Positions 1,620 through 34,634 of a stretch of 34,634 bases of DNA are shown here, piece by piece; the stretch's first letter is position 1; each line of letters opens with the position of its first letter. The stretch comes from an uncultured Woeseia sp. (lineage in GTDB: Bacteria > Pseudomonadota > Gammaproteobacteria > Steroidobacterales > Woeseiaceae). Below the pieces are notes generated by a model that was not told the origin of the DNA, made no database searches, and saw only the letters and a program-made list of their open reading frames with translations. Made by a program: the position numbers and the translations under genes. Location of the stretch: the NCBI GenBank assembly GCA_913031125.1, contig CAJWFK010000027.1:1-34634 (forward strand). Reading direction: 5' to 3'.

Positions 1620-1672
1620 TTGCTACGAATTGCGAAGCAATGTACGCTGTATGCTACATATTTAGTAGCATA
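1620..1672. promoter_or_regulatory. Two tandem dyads upstream of hxlR (candidate operators)
   Basis: Dyad 1 is TTGCTACG (1620-1627), 5-nt spacer, CGAAGCAA (1633-1640), with 7 of 8 pairs. Dyad 2 is TATGCTAC (1650-1657), 7-nt spacer, GTAGCATA (1665-1672), perfect. Their centres (1630 and 1661) are 31 bp apart, close to three helical turns, and both contain TGCTAC. They lie 15-67 nt before the regulator's start codon, a natural place for autoregulation by a dimeric winged-helix protein. That the HxlR protein binds here is inference. Confidence 0.5.
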
Positions 1673-1686
1673 AGGCTGAAACACCT

Positions 1687-2013
1687 ATGGCACAGCGGAT
1701 TCAGAATCTACGGCGTGAGCCCACATCAGCTTTAATGGCACAGGCTTTAAATTTCGCTGGTCGTCGGTGGGCTTTGCGAATCGTATGGGAGCTAAGGGTT
1801 GGCCCGCTCAATTTCCGAGCTTTGCAGGCCGCAAGCGGTAATATCTCGCCAAGTGTATTACAGGCTAGGTTACATGAGTTGATGGATTTAGGGATTATTG
1901 AGAAGATCCCATCACTTGGGTATCGTTTGAGTGCGAGCGGCGATCGTCTGTTTCAAGTACTTGCCAGACTTGATAAATGGTCGATAAATCTAGTGAATAC
2001 TGGGAATTATTAA
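1687..2013 (+). CDS. HxlR-family winged-helix transcriptional regulator
   Basis: 108 residues with the HxlR (MarR/DUF24-like) pattern. GRRWALRIVWEL (about 25-36) starts the wHTH, followed by GPLNFRALQAASGNISPSVLQ as the recognition helix region and LHELMDLGIIEK plus YRLSASGDRL as the wing, ending in a short dimerisation helix. HxlR regulators bind dyad DNA as dimers and often respond to aldehydes, quinones or redox stress. This copy has no cysteine that I can see, so a thiol switch like that of YodB is unlikely. It is oriented against ssrA and smpB, which flank it on the other strand. The two dyads just upstream suggest self-control. Its other targets are unknown. Confidence 0.85.
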   Translation: MAQRIQNLRREPTSALMAQALNFAGRRWALRIVWELRVGPLNFRALQAASGNISPSVLQARLHELMDLGIIEKIPSLGYRLSASGDRLFQVLARLDKWSINLVNTGNY

Positions 2014-2049
2014 ATAAAATAGATTAATTAAATAAGATAAATAACTGTT

Positions 2050-2532
2050 TTATAAATTTTTTATTTTTAAAAGTCTTTGCTTCTGTCTTTTCCACTGCCG
2101 ATCTTTAATGGTAGCTCGTTTGTCAGCGGTCTGCTTACCTTTTGCCAGCCCCATCTCCAATTTTGCGCGGCCTTTTGCCCAGTGCAGGTTTAGTGGGACT
2201 AGTGTGTATCCTTTGCGTTCAACAGCGCCAATCAGGCGGTCAAGCTCGCCTCTGTGCAATAGGAGCTTTCTTGTTCGGGTTGGATCGGCAACAGTATGAG
2301 TTGATGCTGTATTTAATGGTGTAATTAGCGCACCGATTAGCCATGCCTCACCTTCACGTAAATATACGTAGCTTTCCGTAATTTGAGCTTTACCTGCCCG
2401 AAGACTTTTTACCTCCCAACCTTGTAAAGCAAGCCCAGCTTCAATTGTTTCCTCTATATTGAAGTCAAAATACGCCTTTTTATTTTCAGCAATTCTTTGA
2501 GCAACTCGTTTTTTATCTGTAGGTCTAGCCAT
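2050..2532 (-). CDS. smpB: SsrA-binding protein SmpB
   Basis: 160-residue RNA-binding partner of tmRNA; it delivers alanyl-tmRNA to stalled ribosomes. Family features are the OB-like core with [14 protein letters not shown] (about 38-51), [17 protein letters not shown], and [17 protein letters not shown] (about 117-133). The basic tail [17 protein letters not shown] enters the mRNA channel. Length is normal. The gene is divergent from ratA. A TATAAT at 2570-2565 (minus) and a 14-bp palindrome lie just upstream. The start codon lacks a strong Shine-Dalgarno. Confidence 0.96.
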
Positions 2533-2551
2533 TGGCAGTAGCTGGTCTTTT

Positions 2552-2570
2552 TAAGCGATCGCTTATTATA
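2552..2570 (-). promoter_or_regulatory. smpB -10 box with overlapping palindrome
   Basis: On the minus strand a perfect TATAAT occupies 2570-2565; the -35 region is poor. A perfect 14-bp palindrome, TAAGCGATCGCTTA (2552-2565), begins at its last base and covers the expected start of transcription, about 26 nt before the smpB ATG. This geometry suits a repressor site, but the protein is unknown. The core GCGATCGC is also a Dam-type GATC context. Confidence 0.45.
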
Positions 2571-2672
2571 TGTCAGCATGATAGATGTAGGCTTGTTTGT
2601 AGGTAATAGATACAACAAAATTCTTTAGGTAATACTATAGTGGCTAATATCGAGGGATTAGGACGAGATATC

Positions 2673-3110
2673 GTGCGGCATGTAAAAAAAATAGCTTTGG
2701 TCCCATATAGTGCATCGGAAATGTTTAAATTAGTCGATGATATCGAGGCCTATCCCCAGTTCCTTCCTTGGTGTACTTCAGCAGAAATACTTGATCGCAC
2801 AAGTAATACAGTAGAGGCAACATTAGAACTTACTAAAGGAACCACTTCAAAAGCCTTTACCACCAGAAACACTTTGATCGCAGATACGTCAATAGCGATT
2901 GAGTTACTAGGGGGGCCGTTTAGGTGCCTTTCGGGCGGATGGTGTTTCGATTTGCTTGGTGATGATGGTTGTAAGGTAACCCTTGATCTTGAATTTGAAT
3001 TTGAAAATCGAGTTGTTGATATGATGATCGGATCTTTTTTTGAGGAAACCTGTAAATCACTAGTTAAGGCTTTTACAGATCGTGCAGAACAAGTCTATGG
3101 TCCGAGATAA
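2673..3110 (+). CDS. ratA: RatA / START-like ubiquinone-binding family protein
   Basis: About 145 residues of the polyketide cyclase/START-like (COQ10/RatA) family. Hallmarks are ALVPYSASEMFKLVDDIEAY, PQFLPWC, the TTRNTL segment, GPFRCLSGGW, and the C-terminal FTDRAEQVYG. In E. coli RatA is described as hindering 70S assembly and is linked to the smpB neighbourhood; mitochondrial relatives bind ubiquinone. I prefer the GTG at 2673 because AGGA lies 9 nt upstream and MRHVKKIALVPYS matches usual family starts. A GTG at 2640 with weaker AGGT would add 11 residues. It is followed by rnfH with overlap, so the two are translationally coupled. Confidence 0.88.
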   Translation: MRHVKKIALVPYSASEMFKLVDDIEAYPQFLPWCTSAEILDRTSNTVEATLELTKGTTSKAFTTRNTLIADTSIAIELLGGPFRCLSGGWCFDLLGDDGCKVTLDLEFEFENRVVDMMIGSFFEETCKSLVKAFTDRAEQVYGPR

Positions 3111-23889: not shown

Positions 23890-24246
23890 ATGTTGCAAGA
23901 ATATATTCCGATCCTGATTTTTTTGGCTGTTGCGACCAGCATTGGTGTGCTGTTGCTAGTGCTCGGTTTTCTTTTGGGCAGAGGCCGTAAGGACGAAGAG
24001 AAATTGTCGCCATACGAATGCGGGTTCGAGGCGTTTGAGGATAGCCGCATGAAGTTTGATGTGCGTTACTACCTAGTTGCAATTTTGTTTATTATTTTTG
24101 ATTTGGAAATAGCTTTTCTTTTTCCATGGGCTGTTTCACTAGACGCCATTGGGGTTTTTGGACTCATAGCGATGGGTATTTTTCTAGCAATACTGGTGGT
24201 CGGGTTCATATATGAGTGGAAAAAAGGAGCACTGGAGTGGGATTAG
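23890..24246 (+). CDS. nuoA: NADH-quinone oxidoreductase subunit A
   Basis: 118-residue membrane subunit of complex I. Three TM segments (about 7-29, 61-80 and 88-108). The conserved loop [26 protein letters not shown], including the Cys-containing quinone-side loop, links TM1 and TM2. It opens the nuo operon and its stop overlaps the preferred nuoB start by 10 nt. Confidence 0.97.
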
Positions 24247-24758
24247 CAGAGACGTCGCCAAGTCAGGTTGATCAATCTGATCAGACAGCCTTAAGTCTTC
24301 AAAGCAAGGGTTTTGCTGTTACCAGTGTCGACGCGGTCATGAATTGGGCTCGAACAGGATCTATGTGGCCGATGACTTTCGGGTTGGCCTGTTGCGCTGT
24401 AGAAATGATGCAGGCTGGTGCTTCGCGTTATGATTTGGATCGTTTTGGCATAATTTTTCGACCCAGTCCACGGCAGTCCGATGTCATGATTGTAGCCGGC
24501 ACGTTGTGCAACAAAATGGCACCCGCTTTACGTAAGGTTTATGACCAAATGCCAGAACCACGATGGGTTGTATCAATGGGTTCTTGCGCAAATGGCGGGG
24601 GCTATTATCATTACTCATATTCGGTCGTAAGGGGTTGTGACCGTGTTGTGCCGGTTGATGTATATGTTCCGGGTTGTCCGCCAACAGCCGAAGCACTGAT
24701 CTACGGATTGATCCAGTTGCAGAAGAAAATTCGGCGTACAAGCACTATTGCGCGGTAA
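24237..24758 (+). CDS. nuoB: NADH-quinone oxidoreductase subunit B
   Basis: About 173-residue subunit carrying the N2 [4Fe-4S] cluster that reduces quinone. Ligands: Cys52 and Cys53 ([11 protein letters not shown]), Cys117 (GSCANGGG) and Cys147 ([10 protein letters not shown]). The GTG at 24237 has AGGAG 7 nt upstream; the GTG at 24216 would overlap nuoA by 31 nt and bury that signal in the coding region. The first 30 residues are a divergent Ser/Gln-rich lead. Confidence 0.96.
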
Positions 24759-24767
24759 GTACCAGTG

Positions 24768-25472
24768 ATGACTGAATCCTATGAGGCACTGCTAGCTCGG
24801 ATCGACACGCGGTTTGGCGACCAGATGGCTGTTCTCCCAACTGTTTGCGGCGAACTAACTTTTGAAGTTGACAAAAAGAATGTGCGAGGTATTGCGGAGA
24901 TACTGAAAGATGACCCTGAATTTGCGTTTGAGCAACTGCTTGATGTGTGCGGTGTCGATTACTTAACTTATGGTGAGGCCGAGTGGAAAACTGAATCCGC
25001 AACAGAAACGGGTTTTAGTCGAGGTGTTGAACGCGAGCCAGTTATTCTTGATGAAAGTGAAACGTTTGATCCGTGTAGATTTGCTGTTGTCTACCATCTT
25101 CTGTCGGTAACAAGGAATTACCGTTTGCGTTTGCGAGTATTTGCCGGGGAAAGTAATCCACCAATTGTCCAATCTTTAGTGCCGGTCTGGAATTCTGCCA
25201 ACTGGTTTGAGCGTGAGGTGTTTGATCTGTTTGGGGTTTTGTTCGACGGGCATCCGGATCTTCGTCGCATTATGACAGATTATGGTTTTATCGGGCATCC
25301 TTTCCGCAAAGATTTTCCCCTTTCAGGAAATGTTGAAGTTAAGTATGACCCTGAGAAGGGCCGGGTAGCTTACCAGCCCGTGACCATAGAAGAGAGAACA
25401 CTAGTGCCGCGGGTTATCCGCGACGATAACCGTTACTCAGGTGCTCTAAAGGAGTCGTTCAACGATGACTGA
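24768..25472 (+). CDS. nuoC: NADH-quinone oxidoreductase subunit C
   Basis: About 234-residue 30-kDa subunit. Core motifs are [31 protein letters not shown] and the signature [40 protein letters not shown] proline/acid-rich loop of about 25 residues (near 80-105) is longer than in the shortest homologues. Start is ATG 24768; a GTG just before it would add one residue. nuoC and nuoD are separate genes here, unlike the fused nuoCD of E. coli. It overlaps nuoD by 8 nt. Confidence 0.95.
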
Positions 25473-26718
25473 AATTCAAAACTTTACGATGAATTTCGGT
25501 CCACAGCACCCCGCGGCGCATGGAGTATTGCGCCTCGTTCTTGAAATGGATGGAGAAGTTATCCAGAAAGCAGATCCGCATGTCGGGCTCTTGCATCGCG
25601 GGACAGAAAAATTAGCTGAATCAAAGCCTTACAACCAAAATATCGGATACATGGACCGTCTTGATTACGTTTCTATGATGTGTAATGAGCACGGCTATGT
25701 AATGGCAATTGAAAAGCTTCTCGGTATTTCGCCTCCAATTCGTGCCAAATACATACGTGTAATGTTTGACGAGATTACCCGAGTTCTGAATCACCTCATG
25801 TGGCTCGGTGCTCATGGCCTTGATATTGGTGCAATGACGATGTTTTTGTATTGCTTCAGGGAGCGGGAAGACCTGATGGATTGTTACGAAGCTGTGTCTG
25901 GTACGAGGATGCATGCAACATATTATCGGCCGGGCGGTGTTTATCGTGATTTACCGGAGACAATGCCTAAATACCGGTCCAACCAATACCGGAGCAAAAA
26001 AGAAGTTAATCGAATGAACCAAAACAGGGAGGGTTCGCTTCTCGATTTTATAGATGCTTTTTGCGAAAAATTTCCAGGGTGTATTGATGAGTATGAAACA
26101 TTACTAACCGATAACCGCATATGGAAACAACGCACAGTGAATATTGCTGTTGTATCACCAGAACGAGCACTTAATTTAGGCTTCACAGGTCCGATGCTAC
26201 GTGGCTCTGGTATTGAATGGGATCTTAGAAAAAAGCAGCCATATGAAGTATATGATCTCGTGGATTTTGATATTCCAGTAGGAATAAATGGTGACTGTTA
26301 CGATCGATATTTAGTACGTGTAGAGGAAATGCGACAATCTACGAAGATCATCGAACAGTGTGTTGATTGGCTCCGCAAGAATCCAGGTCCAGTGATGCTG
26401 GGAGACCACAAGATCGTTCCACCGGACCGGGTAGAGATGAAAGATGATATGGAATCTCTTATTCACCACTTCAAGCTTTTCACCGAAGGTTATAACGTCC
26501 CGGTTGGGGAGGCCTACGCTGCCCTAGAACATCCGAAAGGTGAATTTGGAGTTTATTTGATATCTGATGGAGCGAACAAGCCCTATAGAGTGAAGATTCG
26601 GGCACCTGGATTCTCACATTTGGCGTCATTATCGGAGATGGTTGAAGGCCATATGTTGGCCGATGTGGTCGCTGTTATAGGTACCCAGGATATCGTATTT
26701 GGTGAGATTGACCGATGA
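25465..26718 (+). CDS. nuoD: NADH-quinone oxidoreductase subunit D
   Basis: 417-residue 49-kDa subunit forming the quinone pocket with NuoB. Motifs: [72 protein letters not shown], and the end [16 protein letters not shown]. The family's quinone-pocket His (HPAAHG) and Tyr (near [13 protein letters not shown]) are present. Overlaps nuoE by 4 nt. Confidence 0.98.
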
Positions 26719-27206
26719 GCCAAACTAGCCTTCTTCCGGACAATGTATGTGAAGAAATAGATCGATGGAAAGCGAGATTTCCGGCTAACCAGCAGCGATC
26801 AGCAGTAATTGGGGCATTGCATGCAGTACAACACCATAACGAGGGTTATTTAACAGCCGAACTTATGAACGGCGTGGCAGAGTATCTTGATTTGCCTACG
26901 ATTCAGGTTTATGAGGTGGCAACTTTTTATTCGATGTTTCAGACGCAGCCGGTTGGCCGGCACAACGTGGCTATATGCACAAATGTATCTTGTATGTTGA
27001 GAGGTGCTGACAACATTGTCGAGCATGTTGAAAACAAACTCGGCATTAAAACTGGTGCAAGTACTGAGGATGAGCGGATATATCTGAAAAAGGAAGAGGA
27101 GTGTTTGGCTGCCTGTTGCGGAGCACCAATGATGATGGTCGATCACAAGTACTACGAAAACCTGACCCTTGAAAAAGTAGATGAGATTTTGGATGGTCTT
27201 GAATGA
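26715..27206 (+). CDS. nuoE: NADH-quinone oxidoreductase subunit E
   Basis: 163-residue thioredoxin-fold subunit with the N1a [2Fe-2S] cluster. Ligands are Cys88-x4-Cys93 (CTNVSC) and Cys130-x3-Cys134 ([11 protein letters not shown]). The N-terminal helical part [19 protein letters not shown] and [11 protein letters not shown] are typical. Overlaps nuoF by 4 nt. Confidence 0.97.
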
Positions 27207-28510
27207 ATAGCTATTCGGAAAATTTGACCTGCTTTAATGTTTTTGGCGAGGATAACTCCTGGTTGCTCGACGTCTATAAGAAGCATGGTGGTTATAAAGC
27301 TTGGCAACGGATTATTGATGGGGAGATTACAACCACCCAAATTATCGACGAAGTTAAGGCTTCCGGACTTCGTGGACGCGGCGGTGCTGGATTTCCAACA
27401 GGTTTGAAGTGGAGTTTTATGCCACGTGACACAGATGGGCAGAAATACTTGGTATGCAATTCTGATGAGAGTGAGCCGGGCACTTGTCATGACAGGGAAG
27501 TATTGCGTTATAACCCGCATAGCCTGATAGAGGGCATGGCAATTGCTGGCTATGCAATGGGTGCAACGGTCGGCTACAACTATATCCGAGGGGAATTCAT
27601 AGATGAACCTGTGCCCCGGTTTGAAGCCGCATTAAAGGAGGCTTATGCGGCCGGATTACTGGGTCGGAATATTAAAAACTCGGGTATTGATTTTGATTTA
27701 CATACCTTTGTAGGAGCAGGCGCTTACATTTGCGGTGAAGAAACAGCTTTGCTGGAGTCATTAGAAGGGAAACAAGGTAAGCCGCGCTTTAAGCCGCCAT
27801 TCCCAGCGAATTTTGGCTTGTATGGCCAGCCCACCACAATTAATAACACACAGAGTTTGGCGAGCGTGCCAGCGATTATTCGCAATGGTGCTAAATGGTT
27901 TGCAGACCTCGGACCGGAAGGTTCTGGTGGCACCGCACAATTTTCAGTTTCGGGCCACATCGAGAAACCTGCTAATCACGAGTTGCCTATGGGTATTCCG
28001 TTTAAAGATTTGCTTGAGTTGTCTGGGGGTGTTTGGAAGGGCCGAAAATTGAAAGCTGTTATTCCGGGGGGGTCTTCTGTGCCAGTGTTGCCGGCAGAGA
28101 TCATTATGAACTGCACAATGGATTACAACTCTCTGCAGAAGGCGGGTTCATCATTTGGTACCGGTGCTGTGATGATCATGGATGATACGACCTGCATGGT
28201 GCGTGTTTTGCAGAGAATTTCCCGTTTCTATATGGCGGAGTCATGTGGGCAATGTACGCCCTGCAGGGAAGGTACAGGTTGGATATATAGAATGTTGACT
28301 CGAATTATTGACGGCCAGGGAGACGAATCTGATCTAGATAAACTGATCGATGTGGCAAACAAAATTGAAGGACACACAATTTGTGCTTTGGGAGATGCCG
28401 CGGCGTGGCCTGTACAGAGCTTTCTTAAGTATTTTCGGCATGAATTTGAGTTTATGGTTCGAAATAATGGGCAGAGTGTTGTAGATGCTGCATCTGAGGC
28501 TGCTGCATGA
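27203..28510 (+). CDS. nuoF: NADH-quinone oxidoreductase subunit F
   Basis: 435-residue NADH- and FMN-binding subunit, the electron entry point. FMN loop GLRGRGGAGFPTG (about 55-67), NSDESEPGTCHDRE and the NADH region GAGAYICGEETALLESLEG are intact. The N3 [4Fe-4S] ligands are Cys348, Cys351, Cys354 (SCGQCTPCREG) and Cys394 (TICALGD). Its stop overlaps nuoG (ATGA). Confidence 0.98.
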   Translation: MNSYSENLTCFNVFGEDNSWLLDVYKKHGGYKAWQRIIDGEITTTQIIDEVKASGLRGRGGAGFPTGLKWSFMPRDTDGQKYLVCNSDESEPGTCHDREVLRYNPHSLIEGMAIAGYAMGATVGYNYIRGEFIDEPVPRFEAALKEAYAAGLLGRNIKNSGIDFDLHTFVGAGAYICGEETALLESLEGKQGKPRFKPPFPANFGLYGQPTTINNTQSLASVPAIIRNGAKWFADLGPEGSGGTAQFSVSGHIEKPANHELPMGIPFKDLLELSGGVWKGRKLKAVIPGGSSVPVLPAEIIMNCTMDYNSLQKAGSSFGTGAVMIMDDTTCMVRVLQRISRFYMAESCGQCTPCREGTGWIYRMLTRIIDGQGDESDLDKLIDVANKIEGHTICALGDAAAWPVQSFLKYFRHEFEFMVRNNGQSVVDAASEAAA

Positions 28511-30669
28511 CTGACGATATCGTTAACATTGAAATTGATGGCAAGGCAGAAAAAGCTCTTAAAGGCGAGATGATAATTTCTGTAACCGACAAAATCGGAA
28601 CTTATGTGCCACGATTTTGTTATCACGAGAAATTGTCGATCGCTGCTAATTGTCGCATGTGTTTAGTAGAAGTCGAAAATGCGCCGAAACCTATGCCGGC
28701 TTGTGCTACGCCGGTTATGGAGGGGATGAGAATTTTTACGCGTTCGCCGGCGGCAATTGCAGCGCAGAAGGCAACTATGGAGTTTCTCCTGATTAATCAC
28801 CCATTGGATTGCCCTATTTGTGATCAAGGTGGGGAATGTGAGTTGCAGGATCTGGCGCTTGGCTATGGACGTGATATTTCCCGTTATACCGAACGTAAGC
28901 GTGTTGTAAAGGACAAGGATATTGGTCCACTAGTATCAACGGATATGACGCGTTGTATCCACTGTACGCGTTGTATTCGTTTTGGGGAGGAAATTACTGG
29001 GTTGCAGGAACTCGGAACGACGGAACGCGGAGAGGATATGAAAATCGGTACTTATGTAGAGAAAAGTATTGATCACGAAATGTCGGCAAATATTATTGAC
29101 CTATGTCCAGTCGGTGCCCTGAATAATAAGCCCTATCGTTACAGTGCGAGGGCATGGGAGATGATGCAACGACCAACTATATCGCCCCATGATTGTGTTG
29201 GATCTAATATGAATGCGCATATCCTTCGTGGAAAAGTAAAGCGCATTGTCCCACGTGAAAATGAGGCCATTAACGAAACCTGGCTCTCTGACCGTGATCG
29301 TTTTAGTTATGAGGGTATATATAGCGGCGAACGTTTACTTAATCCCCGTTTGAAGACTGGTAAAAAATGGAGAGATGTGAGTTGGGATGAGGGGCTAGAA
29401 CGGCTGACGGTGGAATTGCAAAAAGCTTCTGGAACAGATGTAGGAATTATTGCTTCTCCGACTTCTACACTAGAAGAATTTCACCTGTTGTCGAACCTTG
29501 CTGATCATTTGGGGTCTTCAAATATTGATTATCGGACACGGCAAAAAGATTTTTCCGATCAAGAAAATGATCCACTATTTCCGTGGCTCGGATGTAAAAT
29601 TGAAGATATAGAGGCCGCGGGGGCAATTCTTTTGGTTGGCTCTAACTTGCGAAAAGAAGCGCCAATGATTGCACACCGATTTCGGAAAGCCGCATTGGCT
29701 GGTGCGCAGGTTAGCATCATCAGTGCTGAGAAATACGAATATTATTTTGATGTCTGTCACCATATTGATGACTCGAATTTGGTAGAAGATTTAGCAGGCA
29801 TTGCCGTTGCTGCTGCGGATGGTGGTGCTGTTCCAGACGTGATTTCTGATATTTGTGAAGGTGTGGAGCCGACAGAAGTTCACAAACAAATATCGGCCGT
29901 GCTTAATAAAACGGAAAACGCTCTCGTTATTTCTGGCCTTATTGCCAGCCGGCATAGCGCTTTTTCTGTAATCAGGGCGCTGGTTGCCTCGATCGGTGAG
30001 ATGACGGGTGCAAGTTTTGGTGGGTTGTCAGAGGGTCCCAATAGTGCTGGAGGACATCTCGCAGGGGTAATCCCCCATCGTCAGCAAGCCGGTATGGCGA
30101 GGTCCCGACAAGGGTGGAATGCACAGGATATTATTAATAACTCGCCTGAAGTTACTTTGCTCTTTGGTTTGGAGCCGATTGACGTGACTTGTGTGGACAA
30201 CGTAGGTAAAAAGCTTGCTTCTCATCGATTTGTTTGTGCTATGACACCATACTCCAACGAAAGTATGGAAGAATCTTGTAACCTGTTGCTGCCGATCGGA
30301 ACATTCGCAGAAACATCGGGAACATATGTTAATTGCGAGGGCCGATGGCAAAGTTTCGGTGGCATCGCTAAATCGATCGGGGCAGCAAGGCCTGGTTGGC
30401 GTGTTCTTAGGGTGCTGGGTAATTTGCTCGATGCCGGCGGATTCGAGTATGTGTCTAGTGAAGAGGTACTGAAAGAGATTCGTGCGAATATTACAAATAT
30501 CACAGCGGACAATACCTACAAGGGTAGTAAGCCATTACCTAAGACAACTGGTGCGACCGATGGCGGTTTAGCCATTGATGTTCCAATTTACCAAATTGAT
30601 GCTGTGGTGCGTCGGGCGACGGCTTTGCAGCTTACACCTGAGGCTAATCGAAGTAGGTCGAATAATTAA
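28507..30669 (+). CDS. nuoG: NADH-quinone oxidoreductase subunit G
   Basis: 720-residue 75-kDa subunit. The N-terminal [2Fe-2S] ligands are Cys38, Cys49, Cys52 and Cys66. The His-cysteine cluster N5 has His98, Cys102, Cys105 and Cys111 ([14 protein letters not shown]). Cluster N4 has Cys150, Cys153, Cys156 and Cys200. The C-terminal molybdopterin-oxidoreductase-like domain keeps the fold but has no recognised cofactor site, as in all NuoG. The extra N7 cysteine set of some NuoG proteins was not seen. It overlaps nuoH by one base (TAATG). Confidence 0.97.
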
Positions 30670-31757
30670 TGGAGTGGCTGATCCCACAATTTTTTCTTGG
30701 TGCATGGGACCAGTTTCCGCCGCTACTCCAATATCTGATTGAAACAACATTTTGGATTCTTGTTGTCACGATCACTGTCATATTAGGGGTGGCCTTCACC
30801 ACCTATTTCGAAAGAAAAGTGATTGGTTATATGCAAGGCAGGATTGGTCCGAATCGTGTTGGGCCGAAAGGCCTGGGGCAACCTTTTGCTGATGTTCTGA
30901 AGATGTTGATAAAGGAAGTCGTTGTACCTGCTAAATCAAATCGCTTTTTGTTTGTCATCGCTCCACTACTTACTTTGGTGCCCGCACTAGCCACGTGGGC
31001 TGTAGTACCGTTCTCAAATACCTTCGTTATTGCTGACATTAATGCAGGCCTATTGTATGTATTAGCCCTTACATCTGTTGGTGTTTATGGTGTGATTCTT
31101 GCTGGTTGGGCAACTAACTCAAAATATGCGTTTCTCGGTGCGATGCGCTCAGCTGCGCAAATTGTTGCTTATGAAATAGCAATGGGGTTTGCATTAGTTG
31201 GAGTTTTGATGGCTAGTGGTAGTTTGAACCTGGGTGTTATTACGGAAGCACAGGGTGGAGGCGTAACTAATTGGTTTGTTCTTCCACTACTACCCTTATT
31301 TTTCGTTTATTTTATAGCGGGTGTTGCGGAAACAAATAGAGCTCCTTTCGACGTGGCTGAGGGAGAATCTGAAATCGTTGCTGGTTTTCATGTTGAATAT
31401 TCCGGGATTGCTTTTGCGCTATTTTTTCTAGGAGAGTATGCAAATATCATCTTGATATCGGCGTTAACATCAATTCTTTTCATGGGTGGCTATTTATCGT
31501 TTTTCGAGGGCTGGACGATTCTGGAAGGCACCATGTTGAGTTTCCTACGTGAACCCTCACTTGGCTGGTTGGTGCTGAAGATATGTTTTTTTGTGTATGT
31601 GTTTTTTTGGATCAGAGCCACATTCCCGCGTTACCGTTATGACCAAATAATGCGCCTTGGGTGGAAGGTGTTTATTCCGGTCACGATCGTTTGGATAGGG
31701 GTGGAGGCTGTGATGGCGTGGATGCAGGTTGGGCCGTGGACAAATTTGTATGGGTAA
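30669..31757 (+). CDS. nuoH: NADH-quinone oxidoreductase subunit H
   Basis: 362-residue membrane subunit joining the quinone pocket to the proton channel. About eight TM segments. Conserved loops: AYFERKV-like [20 protein letters not shown] (about 38-57), [20 protein letters not shown], and the acidic [19 protein letters not shown] loop followed by FHVEYSG. Complete. Confidence 0.98.
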
Positions 31758-32250
31758 AATGACGAAAAGATTGTCAAGTTACATAAAGACATTTGTCCTG
31801 TGGGAACTATGGCGTGGCTTGTCGGTAACGTTGCGAAATTTCTTCAAACCCCCAGTAACAGTGTTTTATCCAGAAGAAAAGACACCACAATCATCGCGTT
31901 TTCGGGGTCTGCATGCTCTTCGGCGATATCCAAATGGGGAAGAGAGATGTATTGCATGTAAATTGTGTGAGGCAGTGTGCCCGGCACTAGCTATAACTAT
32001 CGAATCAGATGTTGGTGATGATGGCACCAGGCGAACTACTCAATACGATATTGACTTATTTAAATGCATTTACTGTGGCTTCTGTGAGGAGGCTTGTCCG
32101 GTAGATGCAATAGTCGAGACCCGAATACATGAATACCACATGGAAGCACCGGGTGAGAATATTATGACCAAGGACAAGCTCCTAGCGATTGGTGACAAAT
32201 ATGAAGAGATGATATCCGTAGATAAAGAAGCGGATGCTAAATACAGGTAA
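31750..32250 (+). CDS. nuoI: NADH-quinone oxidoreductase subunit I
   Basis: About 166-residue ferredoxin-like subunit with clusters N6a and N6b. Ligands Cys67, Cys70, Cys73, Cys77 ([12 protein letters not shown]) and Cys106, Cys109, Cys112, Cys116 ([12 protein letters not shown]). It resembles the short alphaproteobacterial/mitochondrial-type NuoI ([17 protein letters not shown]) rather than the longer E. coli form. Start is ATG 31750, overlapping nuoH by 8 nt; ATG 31759 is also possible. Confidence 0.96.
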
Positions 32251-32259
32251 GGGGCTGGT

Positions 32260-32871
32260 TTGTTTCAAGCGATTTTCTTTTATATTTTTGCGGTAATCCT
32301 TATCGGGGCGGCTGTGGGTGTTATTTTTTCTCGTAATCCAGTGCATGCAGTGATGTTCTTGGTTCTTGCATTTTTTCAAAGTGCGCTCCTTTGGTTGATG
32401 GCCGAAGCTGAATTTTTGGCGATTGTCCTAGTACTGGTTTATGTCGGCGCGGTAATGGTTTTATTCCTATTCGTGGTGATGATGCTGGACATCAACGTAG
32501 AAAGTGTATCCGTACCCTATACCCGTTATTTGCCATTGGGAATTATGGTTGCGGGTTTGATGGTTGTTGAATTGTTGATGATCATATGGAACAGGCAGGC
32601 GGCTGAGCCATTGACCGGATCATTCTCTAGGATGCCTGAGGGTTATAGTAATACTGAAGCTCTTGGGGCTGTTTTATATACAGAGCATGTCTACGCGTTT
32701 GAGATTGCGGCTGTCATCCTGCTTTTAGCTATCATTGCAGCGATCACGCTAACGATGCGCAAGCGTCCTGGCTTAAAACAACAGAATATCGCGAGACAGG
32801 TTGCGGTACAGGCAAAAGATCGTGTTCGCTTAGTGAAGATGGCAGCAGAATCATCGGAGAAAGACCAATGA
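32260..32871 (+). CDS. nuoJ: NADH-quinone oxidoreductase subunit J
   Basis: 203-residue membrane subunit with five TM segments. It has the conserved [20 protein letters not shown] and the pi-bulge TM3 region [20 protein letters not shown]. The start is TTG 32260 with AAGGGG about 5-6 nt upstream; no ATG fits this N-terminus. The basic C-terminal tail extends beyond TM5. Overlaps nuoK by 4 nt. Confidence 0.96.
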
Positions 32872-33173
32872 TTGGGTTGCAACATTACTTGACGGTGGCA
32901 GCGGTTTTATTTGCCCTTTCTATCGCAGGTATCTTTATTAATCGGCGTAATTTGATTTTGCTTTTGATGTGTATCGAGCTGATGCTGCTTGCCGTCAATT
33001 TTAACTTCATCGCATTTTCACGGTACCTTGGTGATGAAACAGGCCAAGTTTTTGTATTTTTCATATTAACAGTCGCGGCTGCCGAAGCAGCAATTGGCTT
33101 GGCTATCCTTGTCGTTTTATTCCGAAACCGACTTTCAATCAATGTCCAGGAATTGGACTCCATGAAAGGCTGA
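32868..33173 (+). CDS. nuoK: NADH-quinone oxidoreductase subunit K
   Basis: 101-residue, three-TM subunit. The conserved glutamates for proton transfer sit in [13 protein letters not shown] (TM2) and [17 protein letters not shown] (TM3). Complete and of standard size. nuoL follows after 3 nt. Confidence 0.97.
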
Positions 33174-33176
33174 TCC

Positions 33177-34634
33177 TTGGAACACATCCATTTAACCATT
33201 GTTCTCGCACCTTTGTTTGCGGCAGTTGTCACAGGCCTGTTTGGTCGGCAGGTCGGAAGGGCGGGGGCCCATTGGCTCACGATCCTAGCAGTAGGTTTGT
33301 CCTTTGTTTTGTCATGCCTGGTATTGAAGCATTTATATTTAGATGGCGGTGTTGCTGAAAATTATAGTGTCTACACTTGGGCAGTTAGTGATGGCTTGAA
33401 GATGGAAGTCGGCTTTTTAATCGATCGTCTCACCGCATTAATGATGGTAGTAGTTACTTTTGTATCTTGGATGGTCCACATCTACACAATTGGCTATATG
33501 CACGAAGATCCGGGTTACCAGCGTTTCTTTAGCTATATCTCGCTGTTTACATTCGCGATGTTGATGCTAGTGATGTCGAATAACTTTTTACAGTTGTTCT
33601 TTGGTTGGGAAGCAGTTGGTTTGGTTTCCTATCTATTAATAGGATTTTGGTTTAAACGTGAAACGGCGATTTTTGCGAATTTGAAAGCTTTTCTGGTGAA
33701 TCGGGTGGGAGATTTCGGTTTCATCCTGGGTATCGCTGCTTTGGTTATGTTTACCAACTCGCTGGATTATGCGACGGTTTTTTCTAGCGGCGAATCAATT
33801 GCGATGCAAGAAATTGAGATAATCCCAGGCAATCCATGGAATGCGATGACGGTGATTTGCATACTCCTTTTTATAGGTGCTATGGGGAAGTCAGCACAAG
33901 CACCACTGCACGTATGGTTACCTGATTCCATGGAAGGTCCCACACCAATTTCTGCCTTGATTCATGCCGCAACAATGGTGACGGCGGGAATTTTTATGGT
34001 TGCACGGATGTCACCACTCTACGAGCTTTCAGAGATGGCACTAGCTGTGGTCCTGACTATTGGTGCAATTACGGCATTTTTCATGGGACTTCTTGGAATT
34101 GTACAAAATGATATTAAACGGGTAGTGGCCTATTCGACCCTATCTCAGCTAGGTTATATGACAGTTGCGCTCGGTATTAGTGCATACAGCGCAGCGATGT
34201 TTCACCTTATGACGCATGCGTTTTTTAAGGCGCTCCTGTTCTTGGCAGCGGGTTCCGTGATCATTGCTATGCATCATGAGCAGGCGGCTTCTTACGCAGC
34301 GGAAGGCTACGCCCGTATTTCAGGTAAGCCGGGGGTCGCGCTTGTCACCACCGGGCCTGGGGGCACCAATGCTGTTTCGGGTGTGTATGGTGCTTGGATT
34401 GACTCAATTCCTACTATTTTTATCGCTGGGCAGGTGCCTCGGAATCAGATGATCAATGACACGGGTCTTCGTCAATATGGAGTCCAAGAATCGGATATGG
34501 TGACCCTTGTCAAACCAATTACTAAGTATGCGGCGGTTGTTGATGATCCAGCTATGATAAGGTTTCATATGGAAAAAGCACTTCATTTGGCGACTTCTGG
34601 ACGGCCCGGCCCCGTGTGGTTGGATATCCCCTTG
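33177..34634 (+). CDS. nuoL: NuoL N-terminal two-thirds joined in frame to a TPP-enzyme domain (chimeric, 3' partial)
   Basis: TTG start at 33177 with AAAGG about 9 nt upstream. Residues 1-369 are a normal NuoL antiporter-like proton-pumping subunit: FLIDRLTALMMVVVTFVSW, QLFFGWEAVGLVSYLLIGFW, the Lys-bearing MGKSAQAPLHVWLPDSMEGP, THAFFKALLFLAAGSV. At MHHEQ (365-369; 34269-34283) the frame continues as AASYAAEGYARISGKPGVAL, VTTGPGGTNAVSGVYGAW and later RPGPVWLDIPL. That is the N-terminal domain of a thiamine-diphosphate enzyme close to acetolactate-synthase-like proteins, beginning at the HEQ that carries the TPP-activating Glu. The remaining NuoL helices and any TPP N-terminus are missing. 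The frame is open at the window edge. A functional protein is unlikely; an assembly chimera or rearrangement is my reading. Confidence 0.9.
   Translation, partial: MEHIHLTIVLAPLFAAVVTGLFGRQVGRAGAHWLTILAVGLSFVLSCLVLKHLYLDGGVAENYSVYTWAVSDGLKMEVGFLIDRLTALMMVVVTFVSWMVHIYTIGYMHEDPGYQRFFSYISLFTFAMLMLVMSNNFLQLFFGWEAVGLVSYLLIGFWFKRETAIFANLKAFLVNRVGDFGFILGIAALVMFTNSLDYATVFSSGESIAMQEIEIIPGNPWNAMTVICILLFIGAMGKSAQAPLHVWLPDSMEGPTPISALIHAATMVTAGIFMVARMSPLYELSEMALAVVLTIGAITAFFMGLLGIVQNDIKRVVAYSTLSQLGYMTVALGISAYSAAMFHLMTHAFFKALLFLAAGSVIIAMHHEQAASYAAEGYARISGKPGVALVTTGPGGTNAVSGVYGAWIDSIPTIFIAGQVPRNQMINDTGLRQYGVQESDMVTLVKPITKYAAVVDDPAMIRFHMEKALHLATSGRPGPVWLDIPL
34272..34634 (+). other. Foreign segment: TPP-binding enzyme N-terminal domain, 5' truncated
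   Basis: This part codes only for acetolactate-synthase-like sequence: HEQ (catalytic Glu), EGYARISGKPG, TTGPGGTN, the FAD/domain-linking GQVPRNQM region, GVQESDMVTLVKPITKYA and SGRPGPVWLDIPL. The wording resembles TPP enzymes from surface-sugar gene clusters as much as true IlvB/IlvI, so I leave the function open. It lacks the first 40-50 residues and its own start codon. Confidence 0.8.

Follow-up and report, generated by a model that had tools for sequence, protein, structure and literature searches.

The reading frame that runs from nuoL into the gene of an unrelated, vitamin-B1-dependent TPP enzyme at the 3′ end of the window (the whole 34634-base stretch of DNA analysed, which is the complete contig C27 of its bin) is very probably a chimeric contig end. 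It is very likely not a gene: because other assemblies hold an identical nuoL part that runs on to full length, we regard it as a probable artefact of metagenome assembly or library preparation and not as a new protein. A false join over a short identity at the HHEQ codons would best account for it. The bin from which the contig derives comprises 105 contigs and 2.98 Mb and is listed as 94.14% complete and 4.4% contaminated.

The frame (33177..34634) opens with a TTG start, spans 486 codons, and is still open at the window end. Its NuoL part ends at Gln369 (base 34283), directly after the HHEQ codons at 34272-34283, and the part belonging to a TPP-enzyme N-terminal domain continues from 34284 in the same frame, with GCG at 34284-34286 as the first TPP-only codon. 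The residue after HHEQ is Asp in all 16 motif-carrying NuoL genes of relatives and Ala in the window. Measured over 300 bases on each side of the join, DNA identity to these 16 NuoL genes was 0.70-0.76 to the left and 0.22-0.28 to the right; identity to the best 20 of 40 TPP loci was 0.56-0.61 on the right and 0.25-0.32 on the left, with some of the remaining 20 loci down to 0.42 on the right. This switch in DNA identity at the join, together with the profile matches on either side of it, bears out an earlier note on this DNA, which described a NuoL frame turning into a TPP-enzyme N-terminal domain at HHEQ. As window and contig are one and the same, 351 bases separate the join from a contig end (34634..34634, unstranded; total length 34634 bases).

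The 5′ part of nuoL (33177..34283, + strand) encodes residues 1-369 of 655 and was assigned by the NuoL models NF005141 (566.5 bits, cut-off 556) and TIGR01974 (551.5 bits), which matched residues 4-370. Both expected domains were present, namely Proton_antipo_N (PF00662, 81.5 bits) and Proton_antipo_M (PF00361, 221.1 bits), the latter reaching only profile position 231 of 294. The full length of ~655 residues with a C-terminal part was not recovered: the alignment to the intact protein P0244 stops at Q369, leaving NuoL without 286 of its 655 residues in the window. A search with window residues 150-365 recovered P0242-P0245, which are intact 655-aa NuoL proteins from four protein clusters of other assemblies, each with 100% identity over residues 150-365. 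In a full-length protein comparison, window residues 2-369 were identical to all four, and residue 1, where the start codon is taken either as L or as M, was the sole difference to P0244 within residues 1-369. Past residue 369, P0242-P0245 continue as normal NuoL, ...HHEQDVRKMGGL (also given as DVRKMGGLKKYMP and DVRKMGGLKKYMPITY), and 5 of 117 residues agree by position between them and the window 3′ of the join. An intact left parent, as expected for a chimera, is therefore present in near-identical genomes. Compared with the NuoL of Woeseia sp. (NF005141, TIGR01974), the window is alike over residues 1-369, whereas an unrelated piece stands in place of residues 370-655. The four clusters derive from JGI and Tara (contig 7,914), from ENA (8 contigs, the longest 126,815), from NCBI and others (named Woeseia sp., longest contig 170,011), and from Tara; they were compared as proteins and may have Tara reads in common, so their independence as samples is not proven. 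Among 40 genomes, the 40th being the window's own, the NuoL orthologue was matched through residue 366 in a single frame of 631-770 aa in 27, was cut by contig ends in four (G011, G014, G018, G022), and gave a weak or absent match in eight (G004, G006, G009, G010, G015, G016, G023, G026).

Upstream of nuoL, 11 ORFs with Pfam matches represent nuoA to nuoK in the usual order (23890..33173, + strand); subunit letters were taken from Pfam names and from the customary gene order of complex I, and nuoI was called from its ferredoxin domains and position only. Downstream, nuoM and nuoN do not follow nuoL, and a profile search of the entire 105-contig bin, window included, found neither of them. PF00361 matched a single gene across all 105 contigs, nuoL on C27, and a query with the intact relative P0126 returned nothing past its residue 370 elsewhere in the bin. 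Thus, although nuoA-K are present, the bin searches detected neither the remainder of nuoL nor nuoM or nuoN, which extends to all 105 contigs the earlier observation that the last part of NuoL, nuoM, and nuoN are missing from the window.

The right-hand part (34284..34634, + strand) encodes an internal stretch of the N-terminal domain of a TPP enzyme and breaks off where the contig ends. PF02776 (TPP_enzyme_N) matched residues 361-426 with 82.7 bits, covering profile positions 41-106 of 119, and the match includes the HEQ glutamate, a residue with a role in TPP enzymes, though HEQ is common to NuoL too. Its nearest TPP enzymes, at 74-78% identity, are mostly ~600 aa and carry names from several phyla; the piece corresponds to residues 44-168 of ~599, and the likeness extends to RPGPVWLDIPL. 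Unlike ~600-aa enzymes such as P0004, it has no start region and, with the contig ending first, neither a central nor a C-terminal domain; a search of the bin with P0004 found no continuation of the gene, other matches being 26-31% identical. The description of this part as acetolactate-synthase-like is loosely right. The fragment scored 131.2 against the biosynthetic acetolactate synthase model TIGR00118 (curated cut-off 538.35), and the full-length relative P0004 also fell below the cut-off at 427.8. The ~600-aa enzyme (L049, L052) is widespread, and its best NCBIfam matches are acetolactate synthase models, under cut-off. Two neighbourhoods were read, L049 (Elusimicrobia) and L052 (Omnitrophica), and in both of them NeuB, sugar epimerase, and radical-SAM genes are located close to the enzyme gene, which suggests that the enzyme belongs to a surface-sugar cluster.

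This piece probably comes from another organism, since its best identity across 39 other genomes was 45%, no match at E<=1e-32 was obtained in 106 other family genomes, and no continuation of it was found in the bin; alternatively, it may be a gene of a rare strain. Its GC content is high at 52%, a value attained by 3 of 378 segments of 351 bases on the left side of the join, but GC at third positions is ordinary, with 16 of 177 in-frame pieces at or above its level; composition was therefore rejected as a proof that the piece is foreign. Contig C49 of the same bin, which ends inside ilvB at SGRPGPV, the same motif near which C27 ends, was considered as a continuation and rejected: the TPP piece and the last 2754 bases of C49 have no run of more than 9 bases in common, and the C49 product is 30% identical to P0004, compared with 74% for the window piece. 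The C49 gene (L209, G000:C49:14000-16753) is an ilvB with its 5′ end cut by the contig end, and is followed by frames that resemble ilvN and ilvC when read by eye. No IlvB of the 39 other genomes searched is more than 42% identical to that of C49, and GC of the stretch is 52%; thus, C49 may itself be a contaminant.

To compare the two families at the join, 16 of 19 NuoL loci (L030-L048) that carry the motif were used, and motif and edge filters reduced 152 TPP loci (L049-L200) to 40 for the identity comparison and 41 for the k-mer comparison, the latter covering 17 NuoL genes (the 16 and the window) against 41 TPP genes on both strands. Of the shared k-mers, 53 of 344 12-mers, 9 of 24 14-mers, and all three 16-mers fall in register at the HHEQ codons, and no 18-mer was common to these 17 and 41 genes. 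Most of the shorter shared runs (12-mers and 14-mers) fall away from the join; the join site is nevertheless where NuoL and TPP genes share their longest sequence. All three 16-mers trace to a single TPP gene, L145, paired with the window, L034, and L044, and the same gene, one of the 41, gives the longest natural identity at the join, 17 bases at 34268..34284 (+ strand), which we take as the interval holding the join. The string MHHEQ, which the earlier note held to be common to both families, is normal in NuoL but uncommon in TPP enzymes: among 116 listed TPP proteins with HEQ, 34 have THHEQ, 30 NHHEQ, and 8 MHHEQ, and the longer NuoL string IAMHHEQ occurs in one of 120 listed TPP proteins (P0033).

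Short-read assemblers commonly start from 21-mers, and the 17-base identity at the join is shorter than this. Up to 22 bases, sufficient for a 21-mer path, could be common to nuoL and the true TPP parent, provided that the latter encodes IAMHHEQ with the same codons. In the proposed course of events, the first 369 codons of an ordinary nuoL would have been joined, in assembly or library preparation, to an unrelated piece of a TPP-enzyme gene, presumably taken from another organism, across a short run of bases at the HHEQ codons, one that would be common to both genes. The join may have been made by a k-mer path or, as an alternative route, by a chimeric library fragment, and the 351-base tail would fit either alike. 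The k-mer graphs of metagenome assemblies can contain paths without any matching real genomic sequence (PMC8172020); the misassembled or chimeric contigs treated in the relevant part of that study resemble the window in this respect, although no case at nuoL is given there.

A search for the same fusion elsewhere was centred on the join (query residues 335-405; candidates share exact words with the query), and no NuoL-TPP fusion was present among the best 120 of 7999 scored proteins. In agreement with this, the earlier note had placed the architecture in no known family and had named the same fusion in independent genomes as a finding that would overturn its reading. P0122 and P0123, which had raised scores, were rejected as fusions since on reading they show a doubled NuoL stretch without a TPP part, and P0208, listed with 100% coverage, reads as plain NuoL; the remaining listed proteins carry NuoL domains, and their matches span about half of the query. 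P0122 and P0123 are NuoL entries from ~5 kb contigs in which the core stretch around HHEQ is doubled, and they are probably assembly artefacts at nuoL. An exact scan of viral contigs with the 24-base join gave 0 matches, and a light literature search found no published nuoL-acetolactate synthase chimeric fusion protein.

A different join was observed in the relative G018, where nuoL from residue 275 (L214, G018:C25, bases 1637-3106) is preceded in frame by 109 non-NuoL residues that no Pfam model names; the same contig also carries a metK-like frame, read by eye, and the nuoL 5′ part of G018 stops at residue 308 at the end of contig C63 (L213). This is a second apparent in-frame join inside nuoL, and as its partner and place differ from those in the window, it is not the same fusion. 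The second join suggests a tendency of nuoL to break in this way in these bins, although two cases prove no trend.

The rearrangement could instead be real, a deletion or recombination in one strain that fused nuoL to the TPP-enzyme gene, with nuoM, nuoN, and the remainder of nuoL lost or moved elsewhere. In its favour, the frame remains open across the join as far as the contig end, and the bin search detected no nuoM or nuoN; strains with the intact gene are also compatible with a rearranged strain. However, other assemblies hold an intact nuoL identical over residues 2-369, the TPP piece has no close relative in 106 other family genomes, and no second example was seen among the best 120 of 7999 scored proteins; the event would also shorten one complex I pump subunit and lose two more while leaving nuoA-K intact. 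We consider it very improbable, and the same slim chance is given to its specific form, an in-cell rearrangement at HHEQ in a Woeseia strain between nuoL and a horizontally acquired sugar-cluster TPP gene that cut off the distal pump genes.

Further still from probable, to the point of being negligible, is a functional fusion protein in which a truncated NuoL membrane part carries a TPP-enzyme domain. The in-frame join is all that speaks for it, whereas the TPP domain match begins at profile position 41 of 119, only enzyme residues 44-168 of ~599 are present in the window, NuoL is without 286 of 655 residues, and none of the best 120 of 7999 scored candidates shows this architecture. The chimera is supported by the intact, identical NuoL elsewhere, the sharing hotspot at the join, the nearby contig end, and the lack of any other fusion in the best 120 of 7999 scored proteins, and the preference of the earlier note for a false join at short homology is upheld by the same observations.

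No fusion protein is expected in the cell. Where two unrelated families have a codon string in common, as with HHEQ, a likely false join can fall on it and leave the frame unbroken, and automatic annotation would then accept the fusion; in catalogues of fusions drawn from metagenome bins, joins near contig ends need testing.
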